A stretch of DNA of 64,000 nucleotides from Verrucomicrobium sp. GAS474 (GTDB taxonomy: Bacteria; Verrucomicrobiota; Verrucomicrobiia; Methylacidiphilales; GAS474): the NCBI RefSeq assembly GCF_900105685.1, contig NZ_LT629781.1, positions 1,736,001 to 1,800,000 on the forward strand, in the 5' to 3' direction. Numbering within the stretch: position 1 is the first letter of the stretch; the number at the start of each line of letters is the position of its first letter. This document shows, piece after piece, positions 27,371-30,545 of the stretch. The translations under genes were made by a program, and so were the position numbers. The notes below the pieces were generated by a model that ran no database searches, was not told the origin of the DNA, and saw nothing but the letters and a program-made list of their open reading frames with translations.

Positions 27371-27570
27371 TATCCAGCGTGGGTCTTCCCAGGCGCTCCG
27401 TGTCCCATACGCCTTATCTCTCAAGCGTTCCTCTCCCAGGCGCTCCGTATCCCATACGCCTTATCTCCCAAGCGTTCCTCTCCCATGCGCTCCGTGTCTC
27501 ATACGCCTTATCTCCCAAGCGCCCCTCTCCCATGCGCTTGGCAAACGGAACGCTTGGAAGACAAGGCGCA
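27371..27570. repeat. Centre of composite element 2 with three 47-bp tandem units
   Basis: Between facing arms R6 and R7. Three head-to-tail 47-bp units occupy 27390-27436, 27437-27483 and 27484-27530; each starts CA(G/T)GCGCTCCGT and ends CCTCTCC, with a few substitutions. They are followed by CATGCGCTTGGCAAACGGAA and CGCTTGGAAGACAAGGCGCA, homologous to the centre of composite 1, which has only one unit. The difference in unit number accounts for most of the length difference between the two elements. Confidence 0.85.
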
Positions 27571-27850
27571 CGGGGAAAGGGATCGCGGAACGGGAACCGC
27601 CCTTCGGGACTTGCGCGGTCAACCCTGTCCAGCTGGAGGCGATCCGCTTTATAGCCCAAGAGGGGCTTCGCCCCTCCTCGAACCTCCCCTTCGGAGGGCT
27701 TTGGTTAGGCGGACGCGCTTGGGCGGCGCCTCGTCTCTTAACTGGATAAAAATCCGCTGCTTCCCTGAGCGCCCGAGGGTGCGAGCGATAGGGAGAGACA
27801 GGGCCAATACGCCCCGACTCCTATTGGGAGAGAAGCGTATGGGAGAGGAA
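27571..27850 (+). repeat. Interspersed repeat, arm R7 (forward) of composite element 2
   Basis: Right arm of composite 2, from GGGGAAAGGGATCGCGGAAC to ACTCCTATTGGGAGAGAAGC near 27820. Blocks one to three are 'a' type, the fourth (GAGCGATAGGGAGAGACAGG) is 'b' type. It ends about 60 bp before the sigma factor start, so the sigma gene's promoter lies in or next to the repeat. Confidence 0.88.
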
Positions 27851-27913: not shown

Positions 27914-28510
27914 ATGCAGGATTCCGCGCCCTCTCCGGGCCCGACTGACCGTGATTTGGTCAGTCGGGCGCAGGAGGGCGATTTGGCGGCCTTCGACGAG
28001 CTGGTCCTCCGCTACGAAAAGCCGATCCGGGTGACGCTCTATAATATCCTCCTCCACCACGAGGATACGAACGATGCGCTGATCGAGACCTTCACGAAGG
28101 CCTACCAGAACCTCGCCTCGTTCCGCGAGGAGGCCCAATTCTCCACTTGGCTCTACCGGATCGCGAAGAACACCGCGCTGAACCAGATCCGGAAGCGGAA
28201 ACGCCGCCCCTTCTTTTCCCCCTCCCAGGAAGAGGAAGAAGAGTTTTACGAGGGTAATAATTTCATTGATAATAATATTTCGGCTGATGTGACCCGTCAG
28301 ATCGAGAATCAGGAGCTGCAAAATAAATTGAACGAATCGCTCTCCCGGTTGTCAGAAGAACACAGAATGGTTGTATCCCTCTTCGACGTTCAAGGCATGA
28401 GTCACGCGGAAATCGCGGCGATCATGAAATGCACCGAAGGGACCGTCCGCTCCCGCTTGTTTTACGCCCATAAGCAGTTGCAAAAGTTTCTCAAAGATTA
28501 TAAACAGTAA
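27914..28510 (+). CDS. ECF-type RNA polymerase sigma factor
   Basis: Alternative sigma factor of the sigma-70 ECF group. Region 2 (about residues 25-95) includes FDELVLRYEKPIRVTLYNI and STWLYRIAKNTALNQIRKRK; region 4 (about 140-190) includes the helix-turn-helix GMSHAEIAAIMKCTEGTVRS. A linker of some 25 residues between them is strongly acidic (EEEEEF). I start at ATG 27914 (MQDSAP); ATG 27872 is possible but would add 14 residues without homology. It is followed at 19 bp by a membrane protein of anti-sigma type and then a dead HtrA-like protein, so all three likely form one signalling operon. Confidence 0.93.
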   Translation: MQDSAPSPGPTDRDLVSRAQEGDLAAFDELVLRYEKPIRVTLYNILLHHEDTNDALIETFTKAYQNLASFREEAQFSTWLYRIAKNTALNQIRKRKRRPFFSPSQEEEEEFYEGNNFIDNNISADVTRQIENQELQNKLNESLSRLSEEHRMVVSLFDVQGMSHAEIAAIMKCTEGTVRSRLFYAHKQLQKFLKDYKQ

Positions 28511-28529
28511 CATCCCCTCGAGGTTCCCC

Positions 28530-29078
28530 ATGCTTTTCCGCAAAGATACCGCTGATTCCGCCCTCGATCCCCAGATCGCCGCCCTGCTCCGTTCCCGCCA
28601 GGCGATGTTCTCTGAGACCCCTTCCGTCCTTCCCGATCTCCACCGCCGCCTCCGGGCCTCGGCCATGCGCCGCGTCTCCGTCCGGGAGGCCCTCGTCGCC
28701 CGCGTCTCGAACTGGATCGAGGAGCACCTCGCCCTCCAGTCCGGTCTCCGTTATGCCGGTGCCGCCGCCCTCCTCGCCGCCGCCGTCGTCGTCGGCCTCA
28801 ACCAGGCCTCGCTCGGCGAGAACGCGGGCGCCCCGATGCTGACGCTGAAGTCCGAAGCCGCCTCGGCCGTCTCCCCCACTCTCGCCCTCGCCACCCCCGG
28901 CGGCCGGGTCGACTACGCGATGAACGACGCCCAGCCCTCGATGGTCGCCGCCTCGCTCACCCTCGACCAGCAGATCGACCGCAGCACGGTCGGCGGCGAC
29001 CTGAATCCGACCCCGGCGAATGCCCAGTATATCCTGCCCAAGGCCCCTTCGACCTATGATTCGGTCGTGGCGTTCTAG
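28530..29078 (+). CDS. Single-pass membrane protein, probable anti-sigma factor
   Basis: 182 residues: a cytoplasmic N-terminal part of about 70 residues rich in Arg and Leu, one helix at about 75-95 (YAGAAALLAAAVVVGLN), and an extracytoplasmic part of about 85 residues of low complexity. No zinc-binding HxxxCxxC motif is seen. The position immediately after an ECF sigma gene, 19 bp away, and the topology are the basis for the anti-sigma call; the sequence alone does not show a known anti-sigma domain. The next gene begins one base after its stop codon. Confidence 0.6.
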   Translation: MLFRKDTADSALDPQIAALLRSRQAMFSETPSVLPDLHRRLRASAMRRVSVREALVARVSNWIEEHLALQSGLRYAGAAALLAAAVVVGLNQASLGENAGAPMLTLKSEAASAVSPTLALATPGGRVDYAMNDAQPSMVAASLTLDQQIDRSTVGGDLNPTPANAQYILPKAPSTYDSVVAF

Positions 29079-29079
29079 A

Positions 29080-30168
29080 ATGGTCCGGGATACGCGCTTC
29101 CTCAGCCTGAGCTTCGGCTCGGCCTTCTCCCTTCTCGTACTGGCCTCGGCCTCCCTCGGCCTCGGCACCCTCCCCGCCCGCGCGGAGAGCGCCTTCGACG
29201 CCATCGGCACCCAGGTCAACAAGGTCTTTGAAAACGGCAAGGCCTCGGTCGTCCGGGTTCACGCCGCCCAGGCCCCCCTGCCGGGGACGACCGACAGCTT
29301 CGAAACCATCGGCTCCGGCTTCTTCATCGACAACAAGGGGACCCTCGTCACCGCCGCCTCGATCATCGGCTTCAGCCCGGCGGTCTCCGTCGAGGTCGGC
29401 GGGCTGCGGCTGCCCGCGAAGATCCTCGGCCTCGATCCGCGCAGCGGCGTCGCCGTCCTCCAGGTCTTCGACGGGATCACCCCGTTCCTCACCTTCGGCA
29501 AGGAAGAGGATGTCCACACCGCCACCCCGATCGTCGCCATCGGCTTCCCGCTCAACCTTCCCTCGGCGCCGAGCTTCGGGATGGTGACCGGGTTCGACAC
29601 CCAATACCTCGGCCGCTTCTTCTCCTGCACCCACCTCCGCACCAGCCTCCCGATCAGCCCCGGCCAGATCGGCGGCCCGGTCCTCGACGGGCGCGGCGGG
29701 GTCGTCGGGATGCTGATCATGGCGGCCGACGAGCGGAAGTTCGCCTACGCGCTCCCCGCCTCGGCGATCCAGAAGATCGTCACCGACATCGCCGTCCACG
29801 GGCGGGTCGAGTACGGCTGGATCGGCGTCGGCGTCGATCCCCGGTCGGACTCGAACGACGTGAAGATCACCCAGCTCTTTGAATCGACCCCGGCCTCGAC
29901 CAGCGGCCTCCAGCCCGGCGACACCGTCGTCCGCATCGGGCCGCGTGAGATCGCCAAGGCCTCCGACGTCATCGACGCCTCGTTCTACTCCGAAGTCGGC
30001 GACGACCTCGCCGTGGTGGTGAACCGGAAAGGGAAGCTCCTGACCTACAAGTTCACGGTGGGCGAGCGGCCCTCGCGGTTGCCGGTGCCGATCCCGGCCA
30101 TCGTGCCGACCTCTCCTGCGGATGTGCCGCAGCAGGCGATCCCGGTTCGTGCCGACCTTCCCCGCTGA
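29080..30168 (+). CDS. Catalytically dead HtrA/DegS-like protein with PDZ domain
   Basis: Exported trypsin-fold protein of 362 residues: signal peptide (about 1-35, ending ARA), protease-like domain (45-215) and one PDZ domain (about 225-320; YGWIGVGVDP, GLQPGDTVVRIG). Aligned by eye to DegS/DegP, all three catalytic residues are changed: the His of TN.HV is Ser94 (TAASII), the Asp of TDLAVL is Gly123 (SGVAVL) and the Ser of GNSGG is Ile197 (GQIGG). It should bind but not cut. The start is ATG 29080, one base after the anti-sigma stop; an upstream ATG at 29020 would overlap that gene. A role as periplasmic sensor or decoy for the sigma module is inferred. Confidence 0.85.
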   Translation: MVRDTRFLSLSFGSAFSLLVLASASLGLGTLPARAESAFDAIGTQVNKVFENGKASVVRVHAAQAPLPGTTDSFETIGSGFFIDNKGTLVTAASIIGFSPAVSVEVGGLRLPAKILGLDPRSGVAVLQVFDGITPFLTFGKEEDVHTATPIVAIGFPLNLPSAPSFGMVTGFDTQYLGRFFSCTHLRTSLPISPGQIGGPVLDGRGGVVGMLIMAADERKFAYALPASAIQKIVTDIAVHGRVEYGWIGVGVDPRSDSNDVKITQLFESTPASTSGLQPGDTVVRIGPREIAKASDVIDASFYSEVGDDLAVVVNRKGKLLTYKFTVGERPSRLPVPIPAIVPTSPADVPQQAIPVRADLPR

Positions 30169-30210
30169 CCTGTCGCAGCAGGCGATCCTGGTGAGTGGGC
30201 ATTCGGTTTT

Positions 30211-30545
30211 AGGAAAGGGATCGCGGATTGGGGAGTGCCCTTCGGGGCTGGCGCGGTCGACCCTGTACAGCTGGAGGCGATCCGCTTTATAGCCCAAGAG
30301 GGGCTTCGCCCCTCCTGGAACTTGTCTCCCGACCCTGCAAGTTAGTTTCCCCTTTACGAGGTATTGCGCTATCGCGCAGGCAGTCCTGTTCTGAGGGCCT
30401 TAGCTAGGCGGACGCGCTTTGGCGGCGCCTCGTCTCCTCACTGGATTAAAATCGGATGGTTCCGGTACGCTCGAGGGTACGTACTGAAGGGGTAGACGGT
30501 ACCAATACGCCTAGACTCCTATTGGGAGAGGTGCGCTTGGGAGGA
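30211..30545 (+). repeat. Interspersed repeat, solo arm R8 (forward) with a 69-bp insert
   Basis: Copy of the 250-bp repeat in the convergent gap between the HtrA-like gene and alr. From GGAAAGGGATCGCGGATTGG near 30212 to ACTCCTATTGGGAGAGGTGC. Between CCTCCTGGAAC and CTGAGGGCC lie about 69 extra bases (30322-30390) that no other copy has. All four diagnostic blocks are 'a' type and it shares the GGATGGTTCC.GTACGC block with R3. The gap from 30169 to 30210 carries a duplicated piece of the preceding gene's 3' end. No gene is seen in the interval. Confidence 0.87.

Follow-up and report, generated by a model that had tools for sequence, protein, structure and literature searches.

A predicted HtrA-fold pseudoprotease encoded behind an ECF sigma factor and an anti-sigma factor with an aromatic C-terminal tail

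Three genes on the same strand occupy positions 27914-30168 of the window, that is, of the whole 64,000-nucleotide stretch of DNA analysed here. The first (27914..28510, + strand) encodes an ECF sigma factor of 198 aa, with matches to TIGR02937, Sigma70_r2 and r4_2. The second (28530..29078, +) encodes a probable anti-sigma factor of 182 aa with one predicted transmembrane segment, assigned by its position after the sigma gene and by the presence of zf-HC2 in its family. The third (29080..30168, +) encodes a 362 aa pseudoprotease of the HtrA/DegS fold, in which Trypsin_2 is combined with PDZ_2. The sigma and anti-sigma genes are separated by 19 bases, and a single base lies between the anti-sigma stop codon and the start of the HtrA-like gene. 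The order of ECF sigma factor, membrane anti-sigma candidate and HtrA-like protein given in the initial annotation was confirmed, and its coordinates were exact. The sigma factor scores 100 bits against TIGR02937 (cut-off 42.9), which places it among the ECF sigma factors. Its top NCBIfam match is RpoE TIGR02939, at 142.8 bits and below the cut-off of 236. The host genome is 3.76 Mb in a single contig.

A sigma-E-like promoter motif seen by eye 5′ of the sigma gene was dropped, as relatives show no enrichment: it was present in 7 of 144 upstream regions, versus 6.7 in shuffles. A looser version of the pattern was present in 22 of 144 upstream regions, versus 14.1 in shuffles with a shuffle maximum of 25. 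Both flanks of the operon carry a dispersed intergenic repeat (27574-27765 and 30212-30321). Further copies lie near positions 1454, 4662 and 20793, making five related copies in the window, and a 192-base repeat query returned 46 matches in the host genome, approximately 40 of them almost full length. Inside the repeat upstream of the sigma gene, a 47-base unit occurs three times in tandem (27387-27538). In addition, a 46-base tandem duplication (30101-30192) spans the stop codon of the pseudoprotease gene, and thus the final residues of this protein may be a recent extension.

The product of the middle gene (P0002) contains a single hydrophobic stretch beginning at approximately residue 72. 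By itself it gave no informative Pfam or NCBIfam match, zf-HC2 included. A closer inspection of its family reveals that 10 of 50 members match zf-HC2, the anti-sigma zinc finger (best E 7.9e-9), and that homologues of P0002 follow the sigma gene throughout the family. On these two grounds the middle gene is assigned to an anti-sigma factor, its identity being taken from the family and its binding to the sigma factor being predicted; the membrane anti-sigma candidate of the initial annotation is thereby supported. Approximately half of membrane-bound class I anti-sigma factors are reported to be without the zinc motif, with zinc and non-zinc forms intermixed, and helix 4 of class I proteins is described as binding sigma region 2 (PMC7406223). 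In the protein from the window the zinc part is missing and the next conserved segment is kept. This cytoplasmic segment (28575..28667, +; family consensus LLxLKRxExPxxxYFxxFLxEFHRR) might, by analogy, be the sigma-binding helix 4, which we offer as a guess. Three family members (L147, L148 and L150) have long N-termini in which inspection by eye shows two occurrences of the LLxxKRxExP segment; the putative sigma-binding part may have been duplicated there. Several anti-sigma start codons were guessed, and the predicted N-termini of L059 and L101 are truncated. A search of solved structures with the anti-sigma alignment returned nothing useful (best E 0.059), and a structure prediction from two sequences had a mean pLDDT of 43, too low for use. 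Pfam searches of all three proteins, up to E 1, returned no RseB/MucB domain.

The third protein (P0001) matches Trypsin_2 (E 3.7e-19) followed by PDZ_2 (E 2.7e-10), the architecture of HtrA, DegP and DegS. A hydrophobic N-terminus, judged by eye, predicts that it is exported. By sequence, the solved structures closest to it are those of DegP, DegQ and AlgW. A single-chain structure model was built from P0001 and nine relatives (mean pLDDT 73, with many core blocks above 80). This model superposes on plant Deg1 (Z 32.0, rmsd 3.8, 298 aligned) and on DegS bound to an OMP peptide (Z 30.9, rmsd 4.7, 288 aligned), in keeping with the DegS-like fold originally proposed. P0001 falls below the cut-offs of both the DegS equivalog TIGR02038 (71.5 bits, cut-off 422.95) and NCBIfam MamO (34.3 bits, cut-off 800). 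The His-Asp-Ser triad of HtrA serine proteases is absent from P0001. The catalytic His position is taken by Ser94 (codon 29359..29361, +), the catalytic Asp position by Gly123 (29446..29448, +) and that of the nucleophile Ser by Ile197 (29668..29670, +). These three replacements, first read from the sequence of the window, hold both when P0001 is aligned to HtrAs of solved structure and within the alignments of its own family.

An intact triad placed elsewhere in the protein was also sought. No conserved His together with a replacement nucleophile was found across 114 family rows, and a relocated triad was rejected on this basis. It is true that the catalytic Ser is kept in 8 of the 114 dead-type rows and in one (L306) of 22 further members, which would favour a protein that has remained proteolytic through an active site at another place. 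However, both His and Asp are missing from every row with a retained Ser. Conservation of Ser, Cys or Lys nowhere reaches 70% of rows, and the only widespread His (76%) is not accompanied by a conserved nucleophile. We regard continued proteolysis of this kind as extremely improbable.

Conservation was followed across 141 loci, consisting of the window locus, 100 loci from relatives and 40 from a profile search of 387 phylum genomes; the 100 and the 40 are selections out of larger sets of matches, taken in order of match quality with controls added. At 107 of these loci an HtrA-like gene lies directly downstream of a sigma gene, and none of the 107 proteins has the catalytic His or Asp. Conversely, none of the 26 HtrAs with an H/D/S triad has a sigma gene in view, although these active proteins were retrieved by the query and profile of the family itself and are thus an incomplete sample of HtrAs. 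Eight further loci, the partial L143 included, carry the dead type without a visible sigma gene, and seven of the eight are close to the end of a contig. Neither His at position 94 nor Asp at position 123 is found in any of the 114 family rows (a count that leaves out the partial row L143). The same was true of the 22 additional sigma-linked members wherever these positions could be read. Loss of the triad, noted at first in a single protein, is class-wide, and none of the sigma-linked homologues examined has an intact triad. An active protease at the same operon position, which would speak against the initial annotation, was sought and none was found among the sigma-linked homologues.

A search of 142 relatives with P0001 gave 104 matches at E 1e-20 or better, some ordinary HtrAs included. 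One member (L193) lies outside the class but inside the phylum. A contig scan gave nine loci, with family membership for L049 alone; L207 contains masked bases. In a tree of HtrA proteins (88 of 138 rows, after thinning at 75% identity and removal of the triad columns) one branch with support 100/100 splits the active from the dead proteins, and the rows that keep Ser require two changes. Comparison of the pseudoprotease gene with its nearest relative gave pS = 0.38 and pN = 0.14 over 244 codons, indicating purifying selection. Local pseudogene decay was rejected, because the dead type is conserved family-wide and pN is well below pS. As judged from these comparisons, the arrangement of sigma factor, anti-sigma factor and dead HtrA is ancient and conserved across the class. 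In family f11 (L270, L271, L274, L275, L278, L281, L285, L287, L288, L291, L295-L297, L299) the protease domain is nearly unrecognisable, whilst the PDZ domain and an F-ended tail are kept. Part of the triad region of f11 members is unalignable from decay; the PDZ loop is retained.

The periplasmic part of the anti-sigma factor is poorly conserved but closes with the consensus YVLxxxPxxYDxxxxF. In the window, this C-terminal tail (29049..29075, +) ends in V-A-F and is a candidate PDZ ligand. The final residue is F or Y in all 50 rows of family alignment A1 and in 128 of the 129 anti-sigma factors whose gene is followed by an HtrA-like gene, the single exception being L190, which ends in Met. 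For anti-sigma factors without an adjacent HtrA-like gene the count is 5/18, a biased rate, since many of these loci were chosen because the anti-sigma match stopped before the tail. In these counts L118, which ends YETASVRF, was entered as F, and L071 was omitted as no sigma gene was in view. The background of final F or Y is 4.7% of 337 other long ORFs, which were picked mechanically and include some that are not genes. Moreover, every tail from the 22 additional linked loci, f11 members among them, ends in F. In genome G024 the pseudoprotease sits on a different contig; the anti-sigma tail is nevertheless VAF. Position -2 of the tail is non-hydrophobic in some deep branches. A nucleotide-level cause of the terminal Phe, such as overlap with the next start codon or a ribosome site, was rejected. 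The terminal codons TTC, TTT, TAC and TAT, and all three stops, occur alike at overlaps and at gaps of more than 12 bases (86 of 87 loci, L118 excluded), which places the conservation at the level of the amino acid.

On a tree of sigma factors built from 73 of 147 rows, at least five changes of the adjacent gene and at least four of the tail are counted. Random pairings gave 4 independent pairs; on average the tail went with the gene in 1.2, against it in 0.0 and showed no difference in 2.8. Four pairs are too few for such a test to reach significance, and the association between tail and gene depends on a small number of independent changes. Of the five aromatic tails without an adjacent HtrA-like gene, four belong to genomes in which no match reached pseudoprotease level. 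In family f34 (L272, L276, L277, L279), where the HtrA-like gene is absent, several tails end in DFGR or DFSR, which is perhaps another conserved ligand.

The PDZ domain of the pseudoprotease (29809..30054, +; PDZ_2) contains the motif W247-I248-G249-V250 (29818-29829, +), which aligns to WLGV of AlgW and marks the pocket for the last Phe of a ligand. In AlgW, residues W281, L282 and V284 are reported from mutant studies to hold the terminal Phe; both DegS and AlgW recognise C-termini of this kind, with positions 0 and -2 being decisive (PMC8545111). W247 is present in 99 of 114 family rows and G249 in 110 of 114, and the pocket persists even where the protease domain is hardly recognisable. 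The host genome also encodes proteins that could compete for such a pocket. Eight outer-membrane proteins have an aromatic C-terminus: BamA (GYQF), an Omp85-like protein (LAY) and six TonB receptors with a final F or Y (reading frames were chosen by eye; a seventh TonB match, weak and below the cut-off, was not counted). The initial annotation had allowed either misfolded proteins or lipids as the signal; the sequence evidence leans towards protein C-termini, as PDZ ligands, over lipids. It is very unlikely that the dead protease domain instead binds a metal or a lipid. MamO does bind metal (PMC4794232), and a family-specific His185 is found in 76% of the 114 rows. However, His185 is absent from whole branches, a second conserved His is absent, and it is the PDZ and not the protease domain that is best conserved in decayed members.

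The PDZ domains of the active HtrAs in these genomes retain the same pocket, and hence the tail could serve another protein. The tail might be read by an active HtrA, a site-2 protease or a tail-specific protease, leaving the pseudoprotease to sense something else. The host genome does encode a site-2 protease, and the five aromatic tails without an adjacent HtrA-like gene would fit. On the other hand, active HtrAs are also found in genomes with non-aromatic anti-sigma tails, and the association is with the pseudoprotease gene (128/129 versus 5/18). A different reader of the tail appears quite unlikely.

Taken together, these comparisons indicate that the protease is dead, that it is inherited with the sigma/anti-sigma pair class-wide and that the anti-sigma factor carries an aromatic tail of PDZ type. 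It is on balance probable that the three genes form a sigma/anti-sigma module whose third protein, the HtrA-fold pseudoprotease, works by binding. That it acts on the anti-sigma factor in this way, as first suggested, gains support from the conserved aromatic C-terminus, a feature absent from the initial annotation. The HtrA fold would have been kept as a peptide-binding scaffold. At rest, the PDZ domain likely grips the last residues of the anti-sigma tail in the periplasm, and the dead active-site cleft may perhaps hold the conserved YVL segment, as an uncut substrate. What would follow from binding is more tentative. While bound to the tail, the pseudoprotease may shield the anti-sigma factor against cleavage by a site-1 protease, in the way that RseB guards RseA, until unassembled OMPs with F or Y at their C-termini compete for the PDZ site and displace the tail. 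The freed anti-sigma factor would then be cut by a separate active protease and subsequently by the site-2 protease, releasing the sigma factor. The ligand-sensing domain of DegS and the shielding function of RseB would thus be combined in the pseudoprotease, and cutting would be left to other proteins.

The main rival to shielding is that the pseudoprotease presents the anti-sigma tail to an active HtrA, the two possibly forming a mixed trimer, and is needed for cleavage. The evidence from the tails fits equally well, and MamO, itself a dead HtrA, is reported to be required for proteolysis by its active partner MamE (PMC4794232). An active HtrA gene also lies approximately 5 kb from the pseudoprotease in genomes G100 and G069. 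However, the three active HtrAs of the host genome are distant from the operon, and a conserved partner protease in the operon was not seen among the loci examined, and we consider presentation unlikely. In G100 and G069 (family f17; G100:C14 19903-26770 and G069:C1 614298-621370) the active HtrA gene is opposite in direction to the pseudoprotease, and is a candidate partner or source.

The anti-sigma factor could be an OMP mimic whose C-terminus imitates the aromatic terminus of OMPs, its tail being weighed by the dead HtrA against stranded OMPs through plain competition at one PDZ site; we put this forward as a speculative proposal. If it is correct, OMP stress would be sensed stoichiometrically by a sensor without catalysis, and DegS-type sensing would have survived in these bacteria while DegS-type cutting was lost. 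The usual account of HtrA sensors is that a PDZ ligand switches the protease on. A class-wide sigma module without catalysis, but with a PDZ pocket and a matching tail, would show sensing to be separable from cutting, and would supply a little-studied class with an envelope-stress pathway.

The initial annotation knew of no described sigma module with a pseudoprotease. This agrees with a search of largely open-access literature, in which no pseudoprotease was reported in an ECF sigma operon; nor did the same literature contain an anti-sigma factor with an OMP-like PDZ tail. Already known are dead HtrAs (MamO) and partners that protect anti-sigma factors (RseB, TonB-dependent transducers). In E. 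coli, DegS cuts the anti-sigma factor RseA. The sigma-E/RseA/RseB/DegS/RseP system of that species resembles the present module in its ECF sigma factor, its membrane anti-sigma factor, its DegS-type HtrA-fold PDZ protein and a site-2 protease encoded in the genome. However, the HtrA-fold protein described here is non-cutting and is encoded in the operon, the anti-sigma factor, unlike RseA, carries the PDZ-type aromatic tail itself, and no RseB domain was found in the three proteins. RseB is described as a partner that protects the anti-sigma factor (PMC8103513). Shielding of an anti-sigma factor from proteolysis by a periplasmic partner is also reported for TonB-dependent transducers (PMC11637429), a likeness to the role proposed here, although the partner there is an outer-membrane receptor and not an HtrA fold. 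MamO of magnetotactic bacteria shares the HtrA fold, and its dead active site too has been retained in a protein with a non-catalytic role (PMC4794232). In contrast to the protein described here, it belongs to the magnetosome, carries a transporter domain, binds metal and has no sigma module. The AlgU/MucA/MucB/AlgW/MucE system of P. aeruginosa likewise pairs an HtrA PDZ domain with an aromatic C-terminus, a pairing that is predicted here. The AlgW PDZ domain reads the aromatic C-termini of MucE (WVF) or of OMPs (PMC8545111). There, however, the HtrA protein is proteolytically active and binds a ligand other than the anti-sigma factor, whereas here a dead HtrA would bind the tail of the anti-sigma factor itself.
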